From: Acidobacteriota bacterium
GTDB taxonomy: Bacteria; Acidobacteriota; Blastocatellia; UBA7656
DNA length: 61,031 nucleotides
Assembly: GCA_016201275.1 (NCBI GenBank)
Contig: JACQDB010000031.1
Span: forward strand, 1-61,031
Direction: 5' to 3'
A program made the translations under genes and the position numbers. Shown here one piece after another: positions 12,745 through 60,089 of this stretch (the stretch's first letter is position 1; every line of letters starts with the position of its first letter). The notes beneath the pieces were generated by a model, which saw only the letters and a list, made by a program, of their open reading frames with translations, did not search any database and was not told the DNA's origin.

Positions 12745-13496
12745 AGAAAGAAAATACTAGACGCCGAAGAATATGGCGAGAGCAGTTTCAAATCATCGGG
12801 CTGCGCTATCCGCTTGCCGATGCGGTTGGCTCAGGATTGTGGGCGAAATAAAGTGCAACCCGGTACGGGCGACCCTGCGGTGGTCGCCCCTTCTTGAAAG
12901 CGATTGGGTAGCCCACTTCGTGGGCGTAAGCATAAAGCCACGGATGTTAGCCCGTGGACGAGCGCCCCGTCGCTGCATAAAATGCGTACAGAAAAATGCT
13001 GGCGCGGCAATACTGACTTGAAATCGTCCACCGCCTTCCCTCTGACCGAAGGCGTCAATGGCGGCTTTCGGCTCGGCGCAAAAAAATCTAACTGTTGAAA
13101 GCGCAAGATTTTTTTTGGCCTGAATATTTTCCTCCATCAACTCGGTCATATTGTTCAAGCAGGCATACCAATTGCACATAATTCTCGGTGATAGTTTTTT
13201 GAAGCTACGCTGTACTTTTTTCATACTCAAAATTGAATAGCATTGGAGCAGCAATACGAAAACCAAATTGATTTCTGTCCCTTTTGGTTGAAGGGTCTCG
13301 TTACTCTGATTCTTGAGCCGTTTCGGTATGCAATCATCTGGCGATAAGGACTATAGCGAAAACCATTTTGAAGCTTCATGAAAAAGCCTATGTTTTATTA
13401 TTACCATAACTCACGCGGTGCGGTTTCCGGCATCCTCGTGGCTCCGTTTTTCAATAACCAGTGTCGGCAATATCTTGTCAATTGAGAGGAAAAAAT
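12745..13496. repeat. Gene-free spacer with two repeat families
   Basis: About 12841-12892 carries a copy of the GGGCGACC palindrome family (AAATAAAGTGCAACCCGGTACGGGCGACC...). About 12902-12975 holds an inverted, degenerate member of the CCCACTTCGTGGGC/GGCTTTATGCTTACGCCC family seen at 35.1 kb and at the window ends. A 157-residue minus-strand frame here is built from these repeats. The rest, up to the kinase start, shows nothing I can identify; a promoter for the 13.5-kb gene must lie here. Confidence 0.65.
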
Positions 13497-16400
13497 ATGG
13501 CTCAATCAAAAAGGTCTATAGCGAAATCGCGTAGCAAAGCCAAAGACTCTGAAGAACTCAGCATAATGGCCGCCCCTCTGCTGATGGATGAAGAAGGCAA
13601 CGAATTAAAGCTCTTGCTACAGGGCTTGCTGGCCGTCAAGCGTGGCAATTTCGCGGTCCGTTTGCCCGATACCTGGACCGGCATCAACGGCAAACTCGCA
13701 GACACTTTCAACGAAGTCGTCGAGATGAATCAAATGATGGCGGCGGAGTTGGAACGGGTAGGCCGCGTCGTCGGAAAAGAAGGCAAAATCACCCAACGCG
13801 CACGCTTCAAATTAATCGGCGGCTCGTGGTCGGGGATGCTTGATTCGATGAATGGCTTGATTGACGATCTGGTGCGTCCGACCAGCGAAATGACTCGCGT
13901 CATCGGCGCGGTTGCCAAAGGCGACCTGTCGCAAACCATGACCGTAGAATTCGACGGCAGAACCTTGCAGGGCGAATTTCTTCGCACCAGCAAAATCGTC
14001 AACGCTATGGTTGAACAACTCGGTTCGTTCTCCGCCGAAGTCACCCGCGTCGCACGCGAAGTCGGAACCGAAGGCAAACTCGGCGGCCAGGCGCAGGTCA
14101 AAGGCTTGTCGGGTACGTGGAAAGATTTGACCGATAGCGTCAACTCGATGGCCAACAACTTGACCGCGCAAGTGCGAAACATCGCCGACGTGACCATAGC
14201 CGTAGCCAACGGCGACCTCTCCAAAAAAATCACTGTGGACGTGCGCGGCGAAATTCTCCAACTCAAAGACACCATGAACACTCTGGTTGACCAACTGCGT
14301 TCGTTCTCTTCGGAAGTCACACGCGTTGCTCGCGAGGTCGGAACCGATGGCAAACTCGGCGGCCAGGCAGTCGTGCCGGGCGTTGCTGGCGTTTGGAAAG
14401 ACCTCACCGATAACGTCAACTTCATGGCCTCGAACTTAACTTCGCAGGTCCGCAACATCGCGCAAGTCGCCACCGCTATTGCCAGCGGCGACCTCTCGAA
14501 AAAAATCACCGTGGACGTGAAGGGCGAAATTCTGGAATTGAAAAACACGATTAACACGATGGTGGATCAGTTGAATTCATTCGCTGCCGAAGTCACTCGC
14601 GTGGCGCGTGAAGTCGGTACGGAAGGCAAGCTCGGCGGCCAGGCCGAAGTGAAAGGCGTCGCCGGTACTTGGAAAGACCTCACCGATAACGTCAACTTCA
14701 TGGCCTCGAACTTAACTTCGCAAGTCCGCAACATCGCTCAGGTTTCGACAGCTATTGCCAAAGGCGACCTCTCGAAAAAAATCACTGTCGAAGTGAAAGG
14801 CGAAATCCTCGAACTCAAAAACACCATCAACACGATGGTTGACCAATTAAACTCGTTCGCCGGTGAAGTCTCTCGCGTCGCACGCGAAGTCGGAACCGAC
14901 GGTAAACTCGGCGGTCAAGCGCAAGTGCCTGGGGTGTCGGGGACGTGGAAAGACCTTACCGACAACGTCAACTCGCTGGCGGCAAATCTCACAGGGCAAG
15001 TCCGCAACATCGCGCAAGTCGCCACCGCCATCGCCAGCGGCGACCTCTCGAAAAAAATTACTGTAGATGTGCGCGGCGAAATTCTGGAATTGAAAAACAC
15101 GATTAACACAATGGTGGATCAGTTGAATTCGTTCGCCGCCGAAGTCACCCGCGTGGCGCGTGAAGTCGGAACCGAAGGCAAGCTCGGCGGTCAAGCGCAA
15201 GTGCCTGGAGTGTCGGGTACGTGGAAAGACCTTACCGATAACGTCAACTTCATGGCGGCAAACCTCACAGGTCAAGTCCGCAACATCGCCGAAGTGACAA
15301 CCGCTGTGGCCAACGGCGACCTCTCGAAAAAAATCACCGTGGACGTGAAGGGCGAAATTCTCGAACTCAAAAACACCATTAACACGATGGTTGACCAGTT
15401 GAATTCATTCGCCGGTGAAGTCTCTCGCGTCGCACGCGAAGTCGGCACCGAAGGCAAGCTCGGCGGCCAGGCCGAAGTGAAAGGCGTCGCCGGTACTTGG
15501 AAAGACCTCACCGATAACGTCAACTTCATGGCTTCGAACTTAACTTCGCAAGTCCGCAACATCGCGCAAGTCGCCACCGCCATCGCTAACGGCGACTTGT
15601 CAAAGAAAATTACCGTGGATGTGAAAGGCGAAATTTTACAACTCAAAGACACCATCAACACGATGGTTGACCAATTAAACTCGTTCGCCGGTGAAGTCTC
15701 TCGCGTCGCACGCGAAGTCGGAACCGAAGGCAAACTCGGCGGCCAAGCCATCGTCAAAGGCGTCGGCGGTACGTGGAAAGATTTGACCGATAACGGCAAC
15801 TTCATGGCCTCGAACTTAACTTCGCAGGTCCGCAACATCGCGCAAGTCGCCACCGCTATTGCCAGCGGCGACCTCTCGAAAAAAATCACCGTGGACGTGA
15901 AGGGCGAAATTCTCGAACTCAAAAACACGATTAACACGATGGTTGACCAGTTGAATTCATTCGCTGCCGAAGTCACTCGCGTGGCGCGTGAAGTCGGTAC
16001 GGAAGGCAAGCTCGGTGGCCAGGCCGAAGTGCCTGGGGTGTCGGGTACGTGGAAAGATTTGACCGACAATGTGAACTCTATGGCGGCGAACCTCACCGAC
16101 CAGGTGCGCGGTATCGCCAAGGTCGTGACCGCCGTGGCCGATGGCGATTTGAAACAAAAACTGACGGTGCAGGCGAAAGGCGAAATCGCCTCGCTTGCCG
16201 AAACCATCAACAACATGATTGACACGCTGGCCACCTTCGCCGATCAGGTGACGGGCGTGGCGCGTGAAGTCGGCGTGGATGGTCGTCTGGGCGGCCAAGC
16301 CGTAGTGCCGGGCGCGGCGGGAACGTGGCGCGACTTGACTGATAACGTCAATCAGTTGGCCGCCAATTTGACTACGCAGGTGCGCGCCATCGCCGAAGTC

Positions 16401-19322
16401 GCAACCGCCGTGACCAAAGGCGACTTGAGCCGCACCGTGCAGGTCGTGGCACGCGGCGAGGTCGAAGAGTTGAAGAACAATATCAACGAAATGATTCGCA
16501 ACCTCAAAGAGACGACACAGACCAACGCCGAACAGGACTGGTTAAAAACCAACATCGCCAAGTTCACGCGCCTCTTGCAAGGGCAGCGAGATTTGCTCGA
16601 AGTCTCGAAGTTGACGCTGTCGGAACTGGCTCCGTTGGTCGGCGCGCAGCACGGCATCTTTTACATCATCGAAAACGATGAAGAAGGCGAAGCGGTGTTG
16701 AAGATGAAGAGCAGTTACGGCTACCGCGAACGCCGCGTCATCTCGAATTCATTGCATCTGGGCGAAAGTCTGGTCGGCCAGGCGGCGCTGGAAAAACAAC
16801 GCATACTGTTGACCAATGTGCCTGCCGATTATGTGCAGATCAATTCCGGTTTGGGCGAAGCCAAGCCGCTCAACGTCATTATCCTGCCGGTGTTGTTTGA
16901 AGGCTATCCGAAAGCGGTGATCGAGTTGGCGTCGTTTGAGCGTTTCAGCGCCACGCATCAATCGTTCCTCGAACAACTGACGGAAAGTTTAGGCATCGTC
17001 ATCAACACCATACAGGCGAGTACGCGAACCGAAGATTTGTTGAAGCAGTCGCAATCGCTGGCCAAAGAGTTGCAAAGCCAGCAAGAGATTTTGAAGAAGA
17101 CCAACGAAGAGTTGGAAGACAAAGCGCGCCTGCTTGAAGAACAGAAGATCGAAGTGGAGCAGAAGAATCAAGAGGTCGAGTTGGCCAAGAGCGCTTTGGA
17201 AGAGAAAGCCGAACAGTTGGCGCTGACCTCGAAATACAAATCGGAATTCCTCTCGAATATGTCGCACGAGTTACGCACGCCGCTCAACAGTTTGCTGATA
17301 CTGGCGCAACAACTGGCGGAAAATCCACAAGGCAACCTCGAAGAAAAACAGCGCGAATATGCGCGCACCATTCAAAACGCCGGACAGGATTTGCTGGCCT
17401 TGATTAACGACATTCTGGATTTGTCGAAGATCGAATCCGGCACTGTGACCCTGGATTTGCGCGACTTGTCGTTCAGCGAAATCGAAGACCAGATGGAGCG
17501 CGTCTTCCGTCATCAATTCGAGCGCAAAGGGCTGCGCTACATCATCGAACGCGATACGTATTTGCCCAAGACCATGTTTACGGACTCCAAACGCTTGCAG
17601 CAGATTTTGAAAAACCTTTTGGCCAACGCTTTGAAATTCACCGAACGCGGCCAGGTCAGATTGCGCGTAGAGCCGGTGACTGGCGGCTGGAATCCCGACA
17701 ATCGCTCGCTCAACGACGCGCCCGAAGTCCTCGCCTTTGCGGTGTCTGACACCGGCATAGGCATTCCCGCCGCTAAACAGAAGATCATCTTCGAGTCTTT
17801 CCAACAGGCCGAAAGCGGCACCAGTCGCAAGTACGGCGGCACTGGATTGGGTTTGACCATCAGCCGCGAACTGGCGCAACTGCTGGGCGGCGAACTGGTG
17901 GTGCAGAGCGAAGTTGATCAAGGTAGCACCTTCACCCTCTTCATCCCTTTGCGCTACAAAGCTACGGACGCCGCGCAATACGTCAGCCGCCGCAACGCCA
18001 ATGAAACGGAAGGCAAAGAGTTGCGCGCTCAGTTTCTCGCCTTGAGCGAACAACTGCACCAGCATGGCGCGACGGCTTCCGAATTCAGCGATGACCGCGA
18101 AGAGATTCAAACGGGCGATGCGGTGTTATTGATTATCGAAGATGATATGAGTTTTGCGCGGATTATCTTGAGCGCCGCGCAGGAGCAAGACTTCAAGGGC
18201 ATCATCGCCAACAGCGGCGAGATGGCGTTGACTCTGGCCGCGCAATATCAACCCACGGCGATCACGCTCGACATCAATCTGCCGGATATGAACGGTTGGG
18301 TATTGCTCGACCAATTGAAAGTCAATCTGCACACCCGTCATATTCCCGTGCAGGTGATGTCGGTGACCATGCCGAGCAATCAGCATCTTGGCCACAGTTA
18401 TGGGGTGTTGGAGCAACAGGAGAAGCCCACCAACCGCGAAGGCATCGAAGAGGTCATCGCGCACATAAAAGAGTTTGTCGAAAAACCCAGCAAGCACTTG
18501 TTGGTGGTCGCCGAAGACAACACGGCGCGTCAACATACGCTGGAGTTGCTAGGCAACGGCGATATAGAAGTAACCACGGCGGGGTCGGTCGAAGAAGGTC
18601 TAGCGGCGCTGGAAGCGACAGATGCCGACTGTCTGTTGCTGGATGCCAATCTGCCGGACAAAGCGGCCTTGCGCGTCCTGGAAGGCCTTGTCAAGCAACC
18701 GAGCCTGCGAAATATTCCCGTGGTGTTGCAAGGCGAGGCAGAGTGGACGGCCAGAGAAAAAGCTGAGTTCTACCATCTGGCCAAACAACTCAAGGTCAAA
18801 GAGGTCGCCTCGCCGCAACAACTGTTCGCGGAAACGGCGCTGTTTCTGCATCGCGCCGCGACCGATGTGCCGGAGGGCAAACGCCATTTGCTCTTTGATC
18901 TGTACCATCCCAATCAAGTGCTGGTCGGCAAAAAGGTGATGATTGTGGACGATGACATACGCAACATCTTTGCCTTGACCAGTCTGCTTGAGGCTTACGG
19001 GATGCAGGTTTATTCTAAAGACAACGGCAAAGGGGCGATTGAATTGCTCAAAGAGACGCCGGACCTAGACGTGGTATTGATGGACATGATGATGCCGGAA
19101 TATGATGGCTATGAAACCATGATGGAGATTCGCTCGCTGTTGCAGTACAAGACGCTGCCGATTATCGCGCTGACCGCCAAAGCCATGAAGGGCGACCGCC
19201 AGAAGTGTCTGGACGCAGGAGCTTCCGATTATATCGCCAAGCCGGTCAACCGCGAGCAACTGTTGTCGGCCTTGCGAGTGTGGACGTGCCAGGAAAAAGG
19301 TGATCTGTACAGCGTCGCCTGA
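13497..19322 (+). CDS. Soluble poly-HAMP hybrid histidine kinase with three receivers
   Basis: This 1941-residue protein has no membrane segment. The order is: short basic N-terminus; HAMP-type array (about 38-1008) with units of exactly 92 residues (VRNIA...[11 protein letters not shown]...GEILELK...VDQLNSF...VAREVGT...GGQA...[11 protein letters not shown]); GAF-like domain (about 1022-1178); coiled coil; HisKA with phosphoacceptor His1257 in NMSHELRTP; HATPase with GTGLGL; three receivers with acceptor Asp near 1592, 1716 and 1863. Receiver 3 is complete ([23 protein letters not shown]); receiver 2 lacks the usual Thr/Ser region. The architecture resembles fungal group III (Nik1-type) kinases and related bacterial kinases, in which the HAMP chain controls the kinase. 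The start is the ATG at 13497 after GAGAGGA. Confidence 0.93.
13896..16655 (+). repeat. Ten in-frame 276-bp tandem repeats (HAMP units)
   Basis: The VRNIA-type codon block recurs at 14172, 14448, 14724, 15000, 15276, 15552, 15828, 16104 and 16380, always 276 bp apart with no indel, and a diverged unit precedes at 13896. Central units are nearly identical at nucleotide level; 14417-14533 and 15797-15913 are identical over 117 bp at an offset of 1380 bp, which is five units. This implies recent unit duplication or gene conversion. One unit has a GTC-to-GGC change giving DNGNF in place of DNVNF (15796). Confidence 0.93.
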
Positions 19323-23040: not shown

Positions 23041-23089
23041 AAATAAAGTGCAACCTTGTAGGGGCGACCACCGCAGGGTCGCCCCTACA
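23041..23089. repeat. GGGCGACC palindrome, copy 2
   Basis: AAATAAAGTGCAACCTTGTAGGGGCGACC is followed by its complement; TGTAGGGGCGACC (from 23057) pairs with GGTCGCCCCTACA (to 23089). Relatives are at 12841-12892, 52691-52813 and 55783-55814. It abuts element A copy 1. Confidence 0.85.
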
Positions 23090-23255
23090 GGGCCTTGGAA
23101 AATCACGCAAGTTTTGCAGGTTATTTTATCCACAATCATCAGGCGCGACCGGCGACCAACTTCGCTGTCTTGGCTCCACAGAAGCCAACCCAAGTTTCCA
23201 GCGCTACGCCTTCAACCCTACGCTTTTCGCGCTACCTAACCTCATGCCTGGCGCG

Positions 23256-51467: not shown

Positions 51468-52610
51468 TCAGGATTCAGCACGCGAAGTGACGATGTTGCG
51501 CGTCGCTGCCCATTGCCGTAGGTCTGCGTGATTGATTGCCGCCGCCATCAATTCGGGGAATAAATCCGGTGTGCAGGCAAACGCCGCGATGCCCAGTTCG
51601 GCAAACGCCGCCGCTATCTGATGGTCATAGCTTGGCGCGCCGTCGTCATTCAAAGCCAGTAGCGCGATCATCTGCACGCCAGAGGCCACCAGCGCGGCGG
51701 CGCGTTTCAACATCTCTTCGGCATTGCCGCCTTCGTACAAATCGCTGATCAAAATCAATATGGTTTCCTGCGGACGCCGCGCCAGCGTCTGGCAATAACT
51801 CAAAGCGCGGTTGATGTCGGTGCCACCGCCCAGTTGCACACCGAACAATAAATCTGCGGGGTCGTCAATCTCTTCGGTCAAATCAACCACCGCCGTATCG
51901 AACACCACAAGGCACGTATTGACGGCAGGCAGCGAGGCCAGCACCGAACCGAAAATTCCCGAATAGACCACAGAGGTTCCCATTGAACCGCTCTGGTCAA
52001 CGCACAAAATAATGTCGCGCAGCGCAGCGCGTTTGCGCCCGTAACCGATGCGGGTTGCGGGAATGATGGTGCGATATTGCGGTTGATAATGTTTCAGATT
52101 CGCTTTGATGGTGCGCTGCCAGTCAATTTCATGGTGACGCGGACGGCGATTGCGCGAGGCGCGATTGAGACTTCCCAAAACCGCCTGGCGCATAGGATTT
52201 TCCAGTTTTCGTTGTAGCTCTTCAACCACGCGGCGCACCACCAGACGCGCCGTCTCTTTGGTTTTTTCGGGCATCACGTTGCTGAGTGACAACAGATTGG
52301 CGACCAGATGAACATCAGGCTCGACAGCTTCGAGCATCTCCGGTTCGAGCAACATTCGTCGCAGGTTCAAGCGTTCGAAGGCGTCCTGCTGCATCACACG
52401 AACTACCGACGAAGGAAAGTACGAACGTATGTCGCCAAGCCAGCGCGCCACGTTTGGCGAAGAGCTGCCGAGATTGCCGGAGCGGTCAGAGTCGTACAAC
52501 GCCTGCATAGCGCCGTCCATTTTGGCATCCATGCCTTGCAAGACGCAGCCCGTGCCATCGGCCTCATCGCCGCCCAAAATCAAACGCCATCGGCGCATTC
52601 GTTCGTCCAT
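51468..52610 (-). CDS. VWA-domain protein of the MoxR/SWIM cluster
   Basis: The 380-residue protein has a helical N-terminal region (1-195) and a C-terminal von Willebrand A domain with an intact metal site: CVDQSGSMG (Asp205, Ser207, Ser209), GGTDINRAL and LISDLYEGG. VWA proteins paired with MoxR ATPases act as metal-dependent adaptors in chelatase- or chaperone-like machines. It is the last gene of the cluster, 271 bp after the NADAR gene, with a repeat between. AGGAAAG precedes the ATG at 52610. Confidence 0.93.
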   Translation of the reverse strand: MDERMRRWRLILGGDEADGTGCVLQGMDAKMDGAMQALYDSDRSGNLGSSSPNVARWLGDIRSYFPSSVVRVMQQDAFERLNLRRMLLEPEMLEAVEPDVHLVANLLSLSNVMPEKTKETARLVVRRVVEELQRKLENPMRQAVLGSLNRASRNRRPRHHEIDWQRTIKANLKHYQPQYRTIIPATRIGYGRKRAALRDIILCVDQSGSMGTSVVYSGIFGSVLASLPAVNTCLVVFDTAVVDLTEEIDDPADLLFGVQLGGGTDINRALSYCQTLARRPQETILILISDLYEGGNAEEMLKRAAALVASGVQMIALLALNDDGAPSYDHQIAAAFAELGIAAFACTPDLFPELMAAAINHADLRQWAATRNIVTSRAES

Positions 52611-52690
52611 GTTCTTTCCTGATTCAACGATTCAAATTTCCCGAAGCTGTCGCTATTCAGAAAATGCTCTTCTGGAGAAAATTTCAAACG

Positions 52691-52813
52691 ACCTGTACGG
52701 GCGACCCCGCGGTGGTCGCCCGTGCGCCAAAGCCAACACAGTTCAAGTCACCCCTGCGCCAAAGCCAAAGGGTTTCAAGCAGGGGCGACCACCGCAGGGT
52801 CGCCCGTACAGGT
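52691..52813. repeat. GGGCGACC palindrome, copy 3 (double)
   Basis: ACCTGTACGGGCGACCCCGCGGTGGTCGCCCG at the left and its near complement AGGGGCGACCACCGCAGGGTCGCCCGTACAGGT at the right form one large inverted repeat of two hairpins. It lies between the NADAR and VWA genes. The upstream sequence AGAAAATGCTCTTCTGGAGAAAA is shared with copy 4 (AGAAAATGTTTTCTGGAGAAC), so copies 3 and 4 share a flank too. Confidence 0.85.
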
Positions 52814-52881
52814 CATTTAAGGATTCCGCTTTGCCGCAATTTTTTTTGAATCTCTATACAAGCCAGCGCCTCACTCGAAAA

Positions 52882-53322
52882 TTATTCCTCGCGCAAGGCG
52901 GCGCGCACCTCCATCAAAATTATGCCCAGCATATTTTTGCCTGTGCCGTCCGTGCCACAGCCCCAGTAATAATCGCTCGAAGTCTTCTCAATCAATTTTT
53001 CATCACCTGTCGAAAGCAGAATCTCGCGAATATCTGGATGAGTCTCGAATTTTCGTTGCACGGCTTTTCGCATCACATGATCTTTGACCGCTTCCCAATC
53101 TCTGCGAAGCGGACGCTTGCGTTCTCTACCCATATTGGCGGCTTGCTTTGGAGTTTTCGCGTTGCGGATTTCTTCTTCATCAGGCGTACCGGCAAACTTC
53201 TGCGCTTGGAAATAATGCTCACTGGTTCGCCAATGCTTGCCGTCCAGTTCAAAGCCGTGAGCCGAAAAATTGGAAAAGCAGCCGTAGGGAATTTCTCTCG
53301 TACTGTAAAAATAGATAGCCAT
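52882..53322 (-). CDS. NADAR family protein (ADP-ribose N-glycosidase type)
   Basis: The 146-residue protein matches the NADAR/YbiA-like family: YFYSTREIPYGCFSNFSAHGF, TSEHYFQAQKFAGTPDEEEIRNAKTPKQAANMGR, and the C-terminal YYWGCGTDGTGKNMLGIILMEVR. Known members cleave N-glycosidic bonds in riboflavin intermediates or remove ADP-ribose from guanine bases as antitoxins to DarT-type toxins. The start is the ATG at 53322 with GGTGGAG overlapping the end of the DUF5682 gene; a GTG at 53328 overlapping that stop (GTGA) is an alternative. Either way it is translationally linked to DUF5682. No DarT-like gene is visible in the window. Confidence 0.92.
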   Translation of the reverse strand: MAIYFYSTREIPYGCFSNFSAHGFELDGKHWRTSEHYFQAQKFAGTPDEEEIRNAKTPKQAANMGRERKRPLRRDWEAVKDHVMRKAVQRKFETHPDIREILLSTGDEKLIEKTSSDYYWGCGTDGTGKNMLGIILMEVRAALREE

Positions 53323-53324
53323 TT

Positions 53325-55649
53325 TCACTCCACCTTCAATCCCAACAACTGCGCGACCAACGGCAATATGCTATCGGCGCGTTCGCTGTCGAATTCATTT
53401 GAGCCAATAAAGACGGGCGTTTTTTCATCTGCGCCGCGTTTGACGCGCTCGCCCATCTGCCTGCGTTCGGCTTTGGCAAAGGTCGCAAAGGTTCGTCGCA
53501 ACAACGGCAACAACTCTGCGAAAGCATCGCTGTGCAGTTGCGTCACCCAAGCGTCGAGCGTCTGCCAGAGCTTGTCATCGTGCAGCAACAACAAGCCGCT
53601 GCCTTTCAAAAAGCCTTCCACCCAAGCCGCCGCTTTTGCCGGTTCGTTGGCAAGCGAAAGCGCCAAGCCCATGCGCCGCGCTGCTTCCTCCGACAACAGC
53701 ACGCCGCCATCGAGCAAGACCCGACAGCAGCGCCCAGCCAACAAGCCATGCAGATTTTCTTGCTCGGCCATACGCGCCAACACCTTGCGCCATTCCGCCA
53801 ACTGCGCTTCGTTGTCCAATAGTTGAATGGCGCTGTTGGTCTCCATCAACAATTTGAACATGGCTTCGGCGGCCTCGTCGGCAAGCGAGGCACAGGCCAA
53901 AGGCAAACTGATGCAGATGCGCGTCACCATCCCCTCCACCACCTGAGCGACAGCGGCAGTGTCGGTCTGTCTGACGTTGCCATAACGCAAGACATTGGCA
54001 AGCGGCGGCAAGGCTCCCATCAAGTGCGCGACATCGCCGGTCAACGCCGCTTCATTTTGCAACCTCGTCATCAACGCCTTGACCGCTTCCGGCAAATCGG
54101 CAAGCAGCGTCGCATCGAGCATCGCGGTCAACTGTGGCAGATCAACTTGTCCGTTGACTTGCTCTTTTACGCGAGCCGTCGCCGCTGCCTCAATCGTGTT
54201 GCCATAGATTCCCGCTTCGATCAGCTTGATAGAAAATTCCGGTTGCCATTGCAAACGCCAGGTTTCGTTAAACGTGCCTTTCCGGCCATAAACGCGCTCG
54301 GTCTTGCCCCAACCAAGGCTCAAGAGGTTCAAGCGGTGCAGCAGGTGACTGCGTTCCAAATCCGTAGGCTTGCGTAAATCGAACGCCAGAGTTTTTTCCG
54401 TCGCTTCCGGCATCAAACGCAAACGCTTCTGTTCGCGCAGCAAATCTTTCGCCAGCGGCACCATAGGCGTGTCGTCGGGAACCTTGCCCAGACGTTCGCT
54501 GACAATTAGCTTGCGACCAATCAAACGCATAGGCGCATCATCGCCAAAACAGAATACCGTCTGCGTCGCTTCGTTCAATTCCGCCAGCCCCGGCAACGGA
54601 TGCTGGCGCAGCGCCGCCAGCGTTTCCGCCAAACGCGCCGCTTCAATAATCGCAGCAGGCGAGGCGTCCAAATCCTCTTCGCGCAACAGGCGCGCTACGT
54701 TGGCCAGCCAGCGAATCGCTACGCGGTCAGGCGAATGCCAGAGGTGATCGTACCAACCCGGCGAAGGGATGCCCGCGCCGTAACCGCTCGCATAGGTCAA
54801 GCGCCCATACGTCCAAGGCACCCACGTCGCTTCGACTTTAATTTTTGGCAAGCCTTTCAATAACGCCGCATCGGTTTTTGCAGAAGAGGTTTCCACCAGC
54901 GCCGGAGCGTGCCAAGCGCCGCACACCACGGCGATGCGTTGGTAGCCTTCACCTTCGGCGGCGCGTATGGTTTGGCGCATGAAGGCTTCGCGTTGCAACT
55001 CGGATTTTTCATCAACCGACGGCAAGTCATTTCGCAAGGCGGTCATGGCTTCGAGTATGGCGGCAAATAAATCTTGGCTGTCGCGGCGATGCTCGACCAG
55101 GTGTTCCCACCAGCGTTCGCTATCGCTGTAGCCTGCGGCCTGAGCCAGCGCGCCTATCGGGTCAACGCGAAACGGCAAGCACTCGTTGACAGTTGGCTCC
55201 GCGTTCATCGGTTCGCCTTCAGCCGTTTCAACGGTCGCCTCGGCTTCGCCATTTTCTTCCGGCAAGTTTGTCGGGGCGTTTGTCGGCTCCTGTTGCTTTG
55301 CGGCTTCGGCTTCGGCTTGTCTGGCACTCCATTCGGCGAGGCGATGAGTTTGCGGCAAATCCATAAAACGTGCAGGAACATTTTGCTGCAAGGCATAGTG
55401 CAGCGCCTGCCATTCCGGTGAAAAGACTGCAAAGGGATAATAGACCGCCAGTTCCGGTTTATCGGCAACATACAACAGCAAAGCGACCGGCGGTTGCATC
55501 GCTTCGTGCATCAAAAGCGGCAAGACCTTTGCGGCTTCGGGCGGCCCTTCCACCAATAGACAATCGGGCGCAAGCGCTTCCAGCGCCCGCCGTAAACTGC
55601 GCGCCGAACCCGGCCCGTGATGTCGTATGCCAAATATGTGCAAGCTCAT
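53325..55649 (-). CDS. DUF5682 family protein with TIKI/TraB/EreA-like motifs
   Basis: The 774-residue protein starts MSLHIFGIRHHGPGSARSLRRAL, the DUF5682 N-terminus. It has GIRH (7-10), LLVEGPPE (Glu34), EAFMRQTI (about 222-229) and GAWHAPA (Gly244, His247). Two GxxH motifs with a Glu between and an R/M helix before the second are the signature of the TIKI/TraB/EreA/ChaN superfamily, so I infer a metal-dependent hydrolase-like domain in residues 1-260, interrupted by an acidic, low-complexity stretch (105-155). The remainder is helical and may bind the MoxR/VWA partners. The ATG at 55649 is chosen by family match; upstream frame residues look non-coding. Confidence 0.88.
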   Translation of the reverse strand: MSLHIFGIRHHGPGSARSLRRALEALAPDCLLVEGPPEAAKVLPLLMHEAMQPPVALLLYVADKPELAVYYPFAVFSPEWQALHYALQQNVPARFMDLPQTHRLAEWSARQAEAEAAKQQEPTNAPTNLPEENGEAEATVETAEGEPMNAEPTVNECLPFRVDPIGALAQAAGYSDSERWWEHLVEHRRDSQDLFAAILEAMTALRNDLPSVDEKSELQREAFMRQTIRAAEGEGYQRIAVVCGAWHAPALVETSSAKTDAALLKGLPKIKVEATWVPWTYGRLTYASGYGAGIPSPGWYDHLWHSPDRVAIRWLANVARLLREEDLDASPAAIIEAARLAETLAALRQHPLPGLAELNEATQTVFCFGDDAPMRLIGRKLIVSERLGKVPDDTPMVPLAKDLLREQKRLRLMPEATEKTLAFDLRKPTDLERSHLLHRLNLLSLGWGKTERVYGRKGTFNETWRLQWQPEFSIKLIEAGIYGNTIEAAATARVKEQVNGQVDLPQLTAMLDATLLADLPEAVKALMTRLQNEAALTGDVAHLMGALPPLANVLRYGNVRQTDTAAVAQVVEGMVTRICISLPLACASLADEAAEAMFKLLMETNSAIQLLDNEAQLAEWRKVLARMAEQENLHGLLAGRCCRVLLDGGVLLSEEAARRMGLALSLANEPAKAAAWVEGFLKGSGLLLLHDDKLWQTLDAWVTQLHSDAFAELLPLLRRTFATFAKAERRQMGERVKRGADEKTPVFIGSNEFDSERADSILPLVAQLLGLKVE

Positions 55650-55782
55650 AAAAATTTCGATGATGAAAAATGTAACCCGAAGGTTTGTTTCCGAGTTGAC
55701 AATCAACTGAGAAACAATCAACCGCTTAACAATTAACTATAGCGTTCAAGAAAATGTTTTCTGGAGAACTCAACAGCAGTCT

Positions 55783-55814
55783 GGTACGGGCGGCCACCGC
55801 AGGGTCGCCCGTAC
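55783..55814. repeat. GGGCGACC palindrome, copy 4
   Basis: GGTACGGGCGGCCACCGC is followed by AGGGTCGCCCGTAC; the arms pair over about 12 bases with one mismatch. It lies between the MoxR and DUF5682 genes, so two of the three spacers inside the MoxR/VWA cluster hold this family. Confidence 0.8.
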
Positions 55815-55837
55815 ATTCATTGCCAACGCTGCGCCAC

Positions 55838-56917
55838 TTACTCGGAAAGATGGCGGCAGGCGCGATAAAAATCTTTCCAACCGTTGCGCTCTTTGACTAC
55901 GGTTTCCAGATATTCGAGCCACACCACGCGGTCTTGCACAGGGTCTTTGACCACCGCGCCGACCAGACCGGCGGCGACTTCGTTGGCGCGCAACTGCCCG
56001 TCGCCGAAATGACCGGCCAGCGCCAAACCGCTATTGATAACCGAAATCGCTTCGGCAGTGCTGAGGCTTCCCGTAGGGCTTTTCAATTTCGTTTTGCCGT
56101 CGGCGGTGATGCCGTTGCGAAGTTCGCGGAACACCGTCACCACGCGGCGAATCTCTTCCAGCGCTGGCGGCTCGGCAGGCAATTCCAAGGCTCGCCCCAA
56201 ACTCTCGACGCGCCTTTGCACGATGTCCACCTCTTCTTCGAGGTTCGCCGGAACTGGCAACACCACGGTGTTGAAGCGGCGTTTCAAAGCGCTCGATAAT
56301 TCGTTCACGCCTTTATCGCGATTGTTCGCGGTGGCAATAAGGTTGAAGCCTTTGGTCGCCTGCACCTCGTCGCCGAGTTCGGGAATCGGCAAAGTTTTTT
56401 CCGACAAAATGGTAATCAAAGTGTCCTGCACATCCGCAGGTATGCGCGTCAACTCTTCGACGCGGGCGATCTTGCCTTCGCGCATGGCGCGCATCACTGG
56501 CGTCGCCACCAGAGCATTGAGCGATGGCCCTTCGGCAAGCAGGCGCGCATAATTCCAGCCATAGCGTATGCTGTCTTCACTGGTTCCGGCAGTGCCTTGC
56601 ACCAGCATAGTGGAATCGCCCGTAGCGGCGGCGGCAAGGTGTTCGGCAACCCAAGTTTTCGCCGTGCCGGGAACTCCCAACAACAACAAAGCGCGGTCCG
56701 TGGTCAACGTAGCGATGGCGATTTCGATGATGCGGCGATTGCCTATGTACTTGGGCGACACTTCAAAACCGTTGTCGAGTTTGCCGCCGAGTATGTAAGT
56801 CGCCACCGCCCACGGCGACAGTTTCCAGTTCGGTGGGCGTTGGCGCGTATCGCTTTTGGCGATCTCATGCAGCTCTTCGGCAAATTGGTGTTCGGCGTGT
56901 TGACGTAAAATTGACAT
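55838..56917 (-). CDS. MoxR-type AAA+ ATPase
   Basis: The 359-residue protein begins MSILRQHAEHQFAEELHEIA after AAAGGACA. It contains Walker A GVPGTAKT (81-88), a Walker B region IARVEELTRIPADVQD in which Glu-Glu replaces the common Asp-Glu, sensor 1 LIATANNRDKGVNELS, and the arginine finger SSALKRRFN. MoxR ATPases remodel or insert metal into client proteins together with a VWA protein; here VWA is four genes away on the same strand. The Glu-Glu form appears typical of MoxR proteins that accompany DUF5682 (from memory). The gene starts 156 bp after the DUF5691 stop. Confidence 0.94.
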   Translation of the reverse strand: MSILRQHAEHQFAEELHEIAKSDTRQRPPNWKLSPWAVATYILGGKLDNGFEVSPKYIGNRRIIEIAIATLTTDRALLLLGVPGTAKTWVAEHLAAAATGDSTMLVQGTAGTSEDSIRYGWNYARLLAEGPSLNALVATPVMRAMREGKIARVEELTRIPADVQDTLITILSEKTLPIPELGDEVQATKGFNLIATANNRDKGVNELSSALKRRFNTVVLPVPANLEEEVDIVQRRVESLGRALELPAEPPALEEIRRVVTVFRELRNGITADGKTKLKSPTGSLSTAEAISVINSGLALAGHFGDGQLRANEVAAGLVGAVVKDPVQDRVVWLEYLETVVKERNGWKDFYRACRHLSE

Positions 56918-57073
56918 CGCGTTTTGTCCTTTGTTTGTGAGCAATCAAACTCTTGGGAAACCCTGTGCGGCGTTTCCAAACTTGTACTTCTTGATCAACC
57001 GAAAATTCCATACTGACACGAAACCGGCTACAGGAGCCAGTTTCAAGGCTTGGATAAGTTTTGCACGCAGCGT

Positions 57074-58597
57074 TCACGTTCCTCGTCGAAGCTCTTCCAG
57101 CATCTCACAGCGAAAGCGTAAAGGCGCTTCGATATGTTCACCGGCATATTTTGTTTCGTACTCTTCCAGTTGCGGTTTCCACTTCATCACTTCTTCCAGA
57201 GCAAGCGTCGGCGACATAAAATATGACCAAGTTCGCAGCGCATAAAACCAGCCGCGATCATCGGCTTTGATGCGCTGGCGAGCGTGTTCCAACACCAGGC
57301 GCGTAAACCCTGCACTCCATTGATGAATGGCGTAACCAATCAAAGCCATCACTGCGCCTTTGCCCTGTTCCTTGTTGCCTAGTGCTTTGAGGAGGTCGCC
57401 AATCACCTGTTCGCGGCGCGGCAAGGGCAGCAAGCCTACGAGCGGCAAAGGGCTGAAGAGTGGCGTTTCCTTGCCTACGATAATTTTCAACAAAGCTTCG
57501 GCCATCGCTTCATCACGAAAACGCTGCGCGGCATTAAACCAAGCCAACATCAAGGCGCTTTGCCATTCGTTTTTGTCAGACAATTTCAACATCTCTGCGG
57601 TCGAAATTTTCCAGCGCTTGCGCCAAACCTCTAGGGGAACCGCGCCTAAAATCTGCGCCAGCCACCAACCGCGCTGTCCCAATTTGTCATTGGCTTGTGA
57701 AAATGGCGACGCGGCATCAATGCCGTCTCTTGCCATCGCCTTGTCGCAGGCTTCCGGCAGGGTGATGTCAAACCGCGAACGCAAGCCGGATTTGTGTTCG
57801 ATCAATCGCGAGGCGCGTTCGAGCATACGTTGACACAGGCGCGAGGGCGGCAGACGCGCCAGCATTTCCGCAGCGGCGCGGCGCACCTCTTTGCGTTTAT
57901 CATCCAGAGCATTTTCTAAAAACTCTTCGTCAGCCATCGAGACGTTGATCTGTAGCGCTTCGATGAAACGGGCGCGATCTGGTGGCGCTTCCTGCGGCCA
58001 GCTTGCGCTCAACCATTCAAGCGCGAGTGCAGGATTATCTTGGCGTAATTGTTTGAGCGCGCCCAAACGGTCTTCGGCGTTGCCGGTTTGCCAAATCTCT
58101 GCGGCGAGAGTGGCGCTGGTGACAAAACTCCATTCGGGATTTTGCAAGGCCAGCCAGACGCCGCGCCTGCCGATGACAGGCAGAATCAACGGGCGAAAAA
58201 TTTTATTGGCGGCTGCATAATTTAACAGCGATGGCAGCAGCATTGCATTGACGCGCTTGCCAGCCTCGGCCAACGCCTTGAGCCATTCGACCAGCGCATC
58301 ACGATATTCGCCGCTCAACATCAAGGCGAGATGCTGCGCGGCGCGTTCGCTGCACGCTGGTACTTCATCGGCTTCGCAAAATGACAGTGCAGGGATTTCC
58401 ACATCAATTGGCACGCGGCCTGCCTGTTGATGCAAAGCGACAATCGCCGCGCCCTGCAACAGCAACAAGGCTTGATCTGCGCCTTCGAGTCTGTTTAATA
58501 ATTCGCCCAACGCGCCGCCCGTTTGCGCCAGCGCAAACGCCTTGCGCTCGGTTCCGAGCAACGCATTGGTTACGAGGTCTTGCCAGAGATTGGTCAT
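57074..58597 (-). CDS. DUF5691 family helical-repeat protein
   Basis: The 507-residue protein (MTNLWQDLVTNALLGTERKAF...) matches DUF5691. It is almost wholly helical with HEAT-like repeats (EDRLGALKQLRQDNPALALEWLSASWP; DKRKEVRRAAAEMLARLPPSRLCQRMLERA), so it is probably a scaffold. DUF5691 has no known activity. Its ATG at 58597 is preceded by an in-frame TTG (58603) that overlaps the SWIM stop as TTGA, so the two genes are coupled. Confidence 0.9.
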   Translation of the reverse strand: MTNLWQDLVTNALLGTERKAFALAQTGGALGELLNRLEGADQALLLLQGAAIVALHQQAGRVPIDVEIPALSFCEADEVPACSERAAQHLALMLSGEYRDALVEWLKALAEAGKRVNAMLLPSLLNYAAANKIFRPLILPVIGRRGVWLALQNPEWSFVTSATLAAEIWQTGNAEDRLGALKQLRQDNPALALEWLSASWPQEAPPDRARFIEALQINVSMADEEFLENALDDKRKEVRRAAAEMLARLPPSRLCQRMLERASRLIEHKSGLRSRFDITLPEACDKAMARDGIDAASPFSQANDKLGQRGWWLAQILGAVPLEVWRKRWKISTAEMLKLSDKNEWQSALMLAWFNAAQRFRDEAMAEALLKIIVGKETPLFSPLPLVGLLPLPRREQVIGDLLKALGNKEQGKGAVMALIGYAIHQWSAGFTRLVLEHARQRIKADDRGWFYALRTWSYFMSPTLALEEVMKWKPQLEEYETKYAGEHIEAPLRFRCEMLEELRRGT

Positions 58598-58599
58598 CT

Positions 58600-59922
58600 T
58601 CAACTCAAACGGAAAAATTTTCCTTCAACCCAAACGCTCAGAGGAAAAAGTTGTTCGCCATTCCATTCGCCAAACAGTTGCAACGCTCGCCCACCGCTCA
58701 AGGCCAACAACTCCCAGCCCTTGTCGAATTGTTTAGACAGCCGCAAGCTTTTGCCTTTGGCGTCTTGCACCAGCCATTGCTCATTGACGCGCAGCGGGGT
58801 GACCGCAGACAACGTGACGGGCAAAAGTTCCAGCCAAGGGTTTCGCGCCAGCGCCGCCGCACGCGCTTCATAAATTTCCAACACCGATGCCGCGCTGAAT
58901 TCAGCGTCGAATGCCTTGTTGATTTCGCCGCGCTGTTTCAGCAAAGCGCGCAACGGATAGGCGCTGGGAAAAAAGACCAACTCGGCTTCCAACCCCAACC
59001 CCGCCAGCACCGTGATGTCGAAATTGTCGCGCCCGAAAGCGAATTGCAACAACAACGCCGAGCGCCGACTTTCACAGCCGTACAACCATGATCGTTGAGC
59101 GCGAAGTTTTTCTTCTTCATAAACGCGCTGCCCCAAAACTAGCCAGGTGTCGCGCACACCATCTTGGGCGAGCAATTCTTCCTGAACCGGATTCCAGCCA
59201 ATCAACTGGCGTATATCGGCCTGCGTTTCAAACGGCAGAGAGTCCAATCGTTGATAACCTTCAAGCAACAGTTGCAGCCTTGAAAGCCGCTCCAGCAGCC
59301 GATGCTGCCAGCCTTCGCCGGAAGCCGCCAGTCCTGCCATCTGGCGCAGCATACGCGCCAATCCTGCGGCCTGCGCGTCCACCAGTCGCGCCGCTTGCGC
59401 TTCCCAAAATTGATAGGGTTTGGTTTGCGCCGCCGCTAGTCCTTGTCGCACCAAATCGCGCAGCCATTGTTGCAATTCAACAATGCCCTGCTCGACTTTT
59501 CTGGCGCGTTGTTCGGCGCGTTTGAGGTGAGCGTTCGGATCAACATTTCTTTCTTCGCTCTCTTCTTTCTTCACGCGCTGTTCGGCTCTGGCGTCGCGTT
59601 TGACGAGCCATTCGCCAACCCAAGTGGGCGGCTCCTGTTTGGTGAAGGCGGCTTCCTGTGCGACAAACAGCAGGAACAAACCCAGCCCGTGTTTACAGGG
59701 AAATTTGCGACTTGGGCAACTGCATTGAAAGGCCGGTTCAGATAAATCTATCTGCGTTTGATAAGGATTTTTGCCGCTGCCCTGACACGCGCCCCACAAC
59801 GCTCTCGCGGAGCAACCGAGCGCCAGCCATTTGCTGCGATTGGCCAAGGCGCTACCGGCCTTCGCTGATGAAGGGTCCGGCGCAAGCGCGATAATCTGTT
59901 CGGCAGTCCAGGCAATCGGCAT
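58600..59922 (-). CDS. SWIM zinc-finger protein
   Basis: The 440-residue protein has a SWIM motif CSCPSRKFPCKH (Cys67, Cys69, Cys76, His78) after a helical N-terminus (WTAEQIIALAPDPSSAKAGSALA). A long helical region (100-260) and a mixed alpha/beta C-terminus follow. SWIM domains bind DNA or proteins. It is the first gene of the six-gene cluster, and its stop overlaps the DUF5691 start region. A promoter should lie between here and the tRNA gene (59923-60017), but I see no clear motif. Confidence 0.92.
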   Translation of the reverse strand: MPIAWTAEQIIALAPDPSSAKAGSALANRSKWLALGCSARALWGACQGSGKNPYQTQIDLSEPAFQCSCPSRKFPCKHGLGLFLLFVAQEAAFTKQEPPTWVGEWLVKRDARAEQRVKKEESEERNVDPNAHLKRAEQRARKVEQGIVELQQWLRDLVRQGLAAAQTKPYQFWEAQAARLVDAQAAGLARMLRQMAGLAASGEGWQHRLLERLSRLQLLLEGYQRLDSLPFETQADIRQLIGWNPVQEELLAQDGVRDTWLVLGQRVYEEEKLRAQRSWLYGCESRRSALLLQFAFGRDNFDITVLAGLGLEAELVFFPSAYPLRALLKQRGEINKAFDAEFSAASVLEIYEARAAALARNPWLELLPVTLSAVTPLRVNEQWLVQDAKGKSLRLSKQFDKGWELLALSGGRALQLFGEWNGEQLFPLSVWVEGKFFRLS

Positions 59923-60017
59923 AACATGAATCCGTCAAAGTTTTTTCGATTAAAAAGCAGAACGGAAATTAATGGAAGATAAACTTTGCCGAAGGTCTCC
60001 AAAGAGAAAAGATGTGG

Positions 60018-60089
60018 AGCGCGAGACGGGGATCGAACCCGCAACTTTTAGCTTGGGAAGCTAACACTCTACCATTGAGTTACTCGCGC
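60018..60089 (-). tRNA. tRNA-Gly (anticodon CCC)
   Basis: Read on the minus strand the 72 bases fold as a full cloverleaf: acceptor GCGCGAG/CTCGCGC, D arm ACTC AATGGTA GAGT, anticodon stem TTAGC/GCTAA with loop TTCCCAA (anticodon CCC), T arm GCGGG TTCGATC CCCGT, discriminator T. The CCA end is not encoded. It is on the same strand as, and just upstream of, the SWIM/MoxR cluster; tRNA genes are frequent integration points, but I see no integrase or attachment repeat. Confidence 0.97.

Follow-up and report, generated by a model that had tools for sequence, protein, structure and literature searches.

A YehL-type MoxR operon with a probable Ere/TIKI-type hydrolase, DUF5682, and a NADAR gene that is most likely a passenger

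In E. coli K-12 the genes for a MoxR ATPase (YehL), a DUF5682 protein (YehM), a VWA protein (YehP) and a SWIM protein (YehQ) lie together as yehL-yehM-yehP-yehQ, and YehL is among the seven MoxR subfamilies that have been named (PMC3893208). We found no account of the function of DUF5682 or of yehLMPQ in the open literature searched. A MoxR ATPase with a VWA partner is also the basis of RavA–ViaA, which however belongs to another MoxR subfamily and is a two-gene system (PMC3893208). The MoxR–vWA ternary conflict systems described in PMC7159879 likewise join an AAA+ MoxR protein to a vWA partner, with VMAP, iSTAND, FtsH or a beta-propeller as the third component. NADAR proteins of the YbiA family hydrolyse riboflavin intermediates and can in addition strip ADP-ribose from guanine (PMC11125620, PMC11543638), and one member of the family is an antitoxin (PMC11125620).

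The window, by which we mean the whole stretch of 61,031 nucleotides that was analysed, contains a counterpart of yehLMPQ (Table 1). Its MoxR protein is closest to YehL and is clustered with DUF5682, VWA and SWIM genes, which identifies it as part of a YehL-type MoxR operon. Homology is detectable for three of the four E. coli proteins: YehL against MoxR (E 7e-68), YehM against DUF5682 (E 1e-36) and YehP against VWA (E 2e-66). In E. coli, by contrast, the SWIM gene comes last, there is neither a separate DUF5691 gene nor a NADAR gene, and the operon is preceded by a DUF4132 gene. E. coli YehI was considered as a WGR-domain tie to PARPs and set aside, Pfam showing DUF4132 only. An Iodobacter mobilizable plasmid has a YehL-type operon side by side with a pair of DUF4132 genes and a type I restriction-modification system. 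In contrast to the ternary conflict systems, the third component in the window is DUF5682; none of VMAP, iSTAND, FtsH or beta-propeller components scored above the Pfam cut-off among the six proteins, bpMoxR reaching 25.7 bits against a cut-off of 27.

Table 1. Genes and palindromic repeats of the YehL-type locus in the window
Feature	Position	Strand	Remarks
SWIM zinc-finger protein	58600..59922	-	first gene of the five-gene operon; Pfam SWIM; place kept in relatives
DUF5691 protein	57074..58603	-	Pfam 420 bits; HEAT_2 similarity weak
MoxR AAA+ ATPase, YehL type	55838..56944	-	AAA_5 E 6e-37; Walker A GVPGTAKT; Walker-B region RVEELTR
Further copy of the palindromic repeat, MoxR–DUF5682 gap	55786..55815	-	
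DUF5682 protein, YehM counterpart	53325..55649 (start corrected)	-	Pfam 960 bits
NADAR, YbiA type	52882..53328	-	NADAR 149 bits; TIGR02464 ~166 bits
Hairpin of two inverted palindromic repeats, NADAR–VWA gap	52690..52815	-	inverted repeat, 49-nt arms
VWA (CoxE-like), YehP counterpart	51468..52610	-	last gene; VWA_CoxE 165 bits, E 2e-48

The preliminary description had reported six co-directional genes, and all six open reading frames were recovered where it had placed them, with Pfam families that agree with its naming. The overlaps that it gave are real, being TTGA between SWIM and DUF5691 and GTGA between DUF5682 and NADAR; both downstream genes, DUF5691 (ATG 58597) and NADAR, have an alternative ATG six bases further in. 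Conservation in the alignment favours ATG 55649 over TTG 55721 as the start of DUF5682, with MSLHIFGIRHHGPGS conserved from there, which leaves a gap of 188 bp ahead of the corrected start. A second gap, of 271 bp between NADAR and VWA, contains a hairpin (−93.1 kcal/mol, z −10) built from a dispersed palindromic repeat, TGTACGGGCGACC...GGTCGCCCGTACA, of which more copies lie at 12863–12891 and 23060–23091. Given these two gaps, a single direction need not mean a single transcript: the hairpin could uncouple VWA from NADAR, and the six genes may therefore not form one transcription unit. A 24-nt near-repeat (TTCTCCAGAA..CATTTTCT, (−) strand), found ahead of VWA at 52656–52679 and ahead of DUF5682 at 55745–55768, is possibly a shared regulatory element or a repeat tail. 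Directly upstream of the operon lies a tRNA-Gly gene (60015–60089), a candidate integration point. Elsewhere in the window, a hybrid histidine kinase of 1953 residues (13461–19322) carries nine or ten tandem HAMP domains.

The MIDAS residues of the VWA protein (DQSGS, GGGTD and SDL) are intact, as had been stated earlier, and the SWIM protein retains its CxC...CxH motif. At the Walker-B position of MoxR proteins the usual form is Asp-Glu; RxEE[LI]TR stands in its place in 49 of the 52 family members, including that of E. coli, YehL, a feature observed in this analysis rather than a published criterion. In a locus from the class of the window (L052, 6774–10457), DUF5682 and VWA are fused in one open frame of 1228 residues, which hints directly at joint action of the two proteins.

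The conserved unit comprises five genes, SWIM-DUF5691-MoxR-DUF5682-VWA, and not six. The identical order was found in the phylum of the window and in Cyanobacteria, Bacteroidota, Pseudomonadota, Chthonomonas (Armatimonadota), Planctomycetota and Deinococcota, and because it recurs across phyla it is far beyond chance. At least most of the five genes are present in records from Verrucomicrobiota and Actinomycetota; in Hymenobacter (Bacteroidota) SWIM and DUF5691 are annotated as one gene; and plasmid-borne copies of the unit occur in records from Actinomycetota, Deinococcota and Alphaproteobacteria. DUF5682 itself is uncommon, being present in roughly 2–4% of genomes per phylum sample. The earlier proposal of a MoxR–VWA pair with DUF5682, SWIM and DUF5691 as companions thus describes a set that is conserved across phyla, and it is the sixth member, NADAR, that falls away.

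Our neighbourhood sample consisted of 62 DUF5682 loci and eight plasmid records (∼70 in all). NADAR lies inside the operon at the window only, and at all other DUF5682 loci of the sample, cyanobacterial ones included, it is absent from the operon. The preliminary description had itself named the finding of NADAR beside DUF5682 in this genome alone as evidence against its reading, and within the ∼70 loci this is the case. The nearest other NADAR gene on the same contig as DUF5682 is 13.8 kb away, in Niastella populi, which has a complete five-gene operon without NADAR; the remaining two are ∼28 kb from a DUF5682 copy fused to VWA (G009) and ∼36 kb from DUF5682 (G809). DUF5682 and VWA are directly consecutive, either tight or overlapping, in 35 of the 62 loci, and a same-strand gap of more than 250 bp separates them in only four, each time with different contents: NADAR in the window, a PIN gene accompanied by a small antitoxin-like open reading frame (L049), a different PIN gene together with a DUF4261-like one (L043) and SUKH (L126). 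At a further locus (L048) a SelR gene lies between DUF5682 and an inverted VWA gene.

Composition also sets NADAR (GC 48.5%, GC3 0.52) apart from the operon genes (GC 55–57%, GC3 0.60–0.67). The sampled sequences nearest to it come from Cyanobacteria and lie outside such operons (72% identity for L158), compared with 58–59% for class-mates. The NADAR tree leaves many forks open and places the window sequence outside every well-supported clade, so that the leaning to Cyanobacteria is drawn from identity and path length. The DUF5682 protein of the window also stands beside cyanobacterial ones in its tree (local support 0.92), so that joint or separate transfer of the two genes from such a source is possible; the shared leaning would also fit a six-gene unit arriving together from an unsampled donor. 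At the level of genomes NADAR was found in 25 of 57 DUF5682-positive and 13 of 59 DUF5682-negative genomes (stratified p = 0.02, uncorrected for kinship and with unmatched negatives), a mild co-occurrence that relatedness could produce. These data make NADAR most likely a passenger inserted in the unit and at most co-transcribed with it, and a partnership with the MoxR machine improbable.

The NADAR protein is ∼50% identical, by aligned residues, to E. coli YbiA (2B3W), scores 165.7 bits against a cut-off of 73.7 with the riboflavin N-glycosidase model TIGR02464, and carries in its last strand a Glu (LME), the residue that marks the YbiA subfamily (PMC11125620). It shares the NADAR domain with YbiA itself and with the NADAR members of the DarT1–NADAR and YarT–YbiA pairs (PMC11125620, PMC11543638), from which it differs in lying within a MoxR operon with no ART or DarT recognised adjoining. 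We rejected its identification as a DarT1–NADAR (DarTG1) protein, given that its neighbours are DUF5682 and VWA and not DarT, and that it has the Glu and not a BC4488-type Asp. Two divergent NADAR genes were seen on the same viral contig in two cases (L068, 1464–2455, where the frames overlap, and L070, 1589–3468).

The passenger reading can be narrowed further: NADAR may act as an ordinary N-glycosidase of riboflavin intermediates, in the role of YbiA, that happens to be co-transcribed and has no tie to the machine or to ADP-ribosylation. The model score, the resemblance to YbiA and the fact that it is the only NADAR gene in its genome all agree with this, and we regard it as a serious possibility that falls short of an even chance. 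A core housekeeping gene would not be expected to be missing from six of the seven family or order mates tested, as this one is; moreover, the activity of the YbiA family on ADP-ribosylated guanine, and its antitoxin member, speak against this reading. Relatives of the protein also keep other company. Microbial PARG (PF10021) was present in four of 21 genomes checked, each time beside or within ∼1.2 kb of a YbiA-type NADAR gene (G643, G329, G048 and G013, from two groups; loci L160, L164, L062 and G013:C207), whereas the genome of the window has none. This neighbourhood hints at ADP-ribose chemistry for the relatives of NADAR, which may form an ADP-ribose pair with PARG in those other genomes, and it is silent on the MoxR operon. 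Open literature on NADAR with PARG, in cyanobacteria or in an operon yielded nothing on function.

The invariant residues of DUF5682 in the alignment (G7, R9, H10, H11, E34, G244 and H247) are grouped in three motifs, G7xRHH11, E34 (in LVEGPP) and G244AWH247. All 12 YehM-branch sequences inspected, among them that of E. coli YehM, have RHH and GxxH, and a pattern search recovered the E motif in 10. This conserved RHH/E/GxxH signature is newly recognised here in DUF5682 and extends to E. coli YehM. DUF5682 thereby shows the features by which members of the Ere/TIKI superfamily are recognised in sequence, namely two GxxH-type His motifs and a conserved Glu, a lead that was taken from the motifs ahead of any fold comparison. 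One DUF5682 member in addition gave a weak Pfam match to TraB_PrgY_gumN.

In the follow-up comparison of the full AlphaFold model the matches were taken up by its helical C-terminal half, and the N-terminal 385 residues were therefore folded alone (pLDDT 73). The best alignment of this model was to a Tetrahymena complex IV subunit (Z up to 9.9), followed by EreC (6xcq; Z 7.5, rmsd 4.3, 157 residues) and BcR135 (3b55; Z 7.0), the range of 7.0–7.5 being one in which the tool warns of a mere common arrangement; matches after BcR135 had Z of 6.0 and below. Foldseek against the PDB returned nothing significant for either the full or the N-terminal model, and a PDB sequence search with DUF5682 profiles nothing convincing. 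Like EreC and BcR135, DUF5682 has two conserved His motifs and a Glu, and its N-terminal model suggests an alpha/beta core; it differs from them in having no sequence-level match to the superfamily and in its extra, large C-terminal half, which is modelled as a helical solenoid. The comparison suggests an Ere/TIKI-like fold for the N-terminal domain, and taken with the motifs it makes DUF5682/YehM probably a hydrolase of the Ere/TIKI type. The earlier suggestion that DUF5682 is an enzyme looks correct on the same two grounds.

The assignment of the five genes is firm: their content and conservation, the absence of NADAR from the other sampled operons and the DUF5682 signature are all seen directly, whereas the fold, the complex and each catalytic or regulatory step are inferred. 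We hold with moderate confidence that the locus is best explained as a YehL-type operon in which MoxR and VWA control a DUF5682 hydrolase, with an unrelated NADAR gene of the YbiA type inserted between DUF5682 and VWA. DUF5682 would hydrolyse its substrate at a His/Glu active site (RHH, EGP and GxWH) in the Ere/TIKI-fold N-terminal domain, and its C-terminal solenoid would bind partners. The MoxR ring would use the MIDAS of the VWA protein as its coupling and would remodel DUF5682, switching it on or off, or feed it a substrate, while the SWIM protein and DUF5691, which is HEAT-like, may be recruitment factors that select the target or keep the assembly together. NADAR would meanwhile run a reaction of its own, as a YbiA-type N-glycosidase or in the de-ADP-ribosylation of guanine.

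The purpose of such a machine can be read in more than one way. It may be a conflict system, anti-phage or inter-bacterial, with the DUF5682 hydrolase as effector in the manner of the MoxR–vWA ternary systems, in which the MoxR–vWA couple is a threshold switch (PMC7159879). The patchy and sparse distribution of the unit, and plasmid copies that adjoin recombinases and a restriction-modification system, would suit this role. Against it, PMC7159879 makes no mention of SWIM, YehL or DUF5682, the system is located in the E. coli K-12 chromosome, and no hypervariable effector was noticed. PADLOC gave weak matches only, and we did not adopt a defence-system label for the locus. We consider a conflict role possible on this balance, though less likely than not.

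Somewhat more doubtful is a maturation or metallochaperone machine in the style of CoxD–CoxE or NorQ–NorD, in which DUF5682 would be either the client or a peptidase or esterase that acts on the client. The VWA protein is CoxE-like, and MoxR–VWA pairs mature enzymes elsewhere (PMC3893208); however, no recurrent metalloenzyme was seen beside the operon in the annotated relatives inspected.

That NADAR was recruited as a working part, removing the mark when the machine meets an ADP-ribosylated or N-glycosylated target, we think very unlikely: the GTGA overlap with DUF5682, its status as sole NADAR of the genome, the mild genome-level co-occurrence, the PARG neighbours of its close relatives and the leaning of both proteins to Cyanobacteria would be in keeping with recruitment, but ∼70 loci provide no second NADAR-bearing operon, unrelated genes fill the same junction elsewhere, the composition is unlike that of the operon genes, and the gene has neither a recognised DarT or ART adjoining the operon nor a PARG partner in the genome. 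Just as improbable is a lineage-specific NADAR subunit of a machine that handles ADP-ribosylated molecules, the unit having come whole from a cyanobacterium-like donor.

In conclusion, reading NADAR as a passenger, the most likely case, removes a misleading tie of the yehLMPQ-type system to ADP-ribosylation and points instead to a separate NADAR–PARG pairing in other genomes. For the system itself, which occurs across many phyla and whose DUF5682 signature is retained from E. coli to Cyanobacteria, the recognition of DUF5682/YehM as a probable Ere/TIKI-type hydrolase would offer a first activity to test, together with three residues for mutation.
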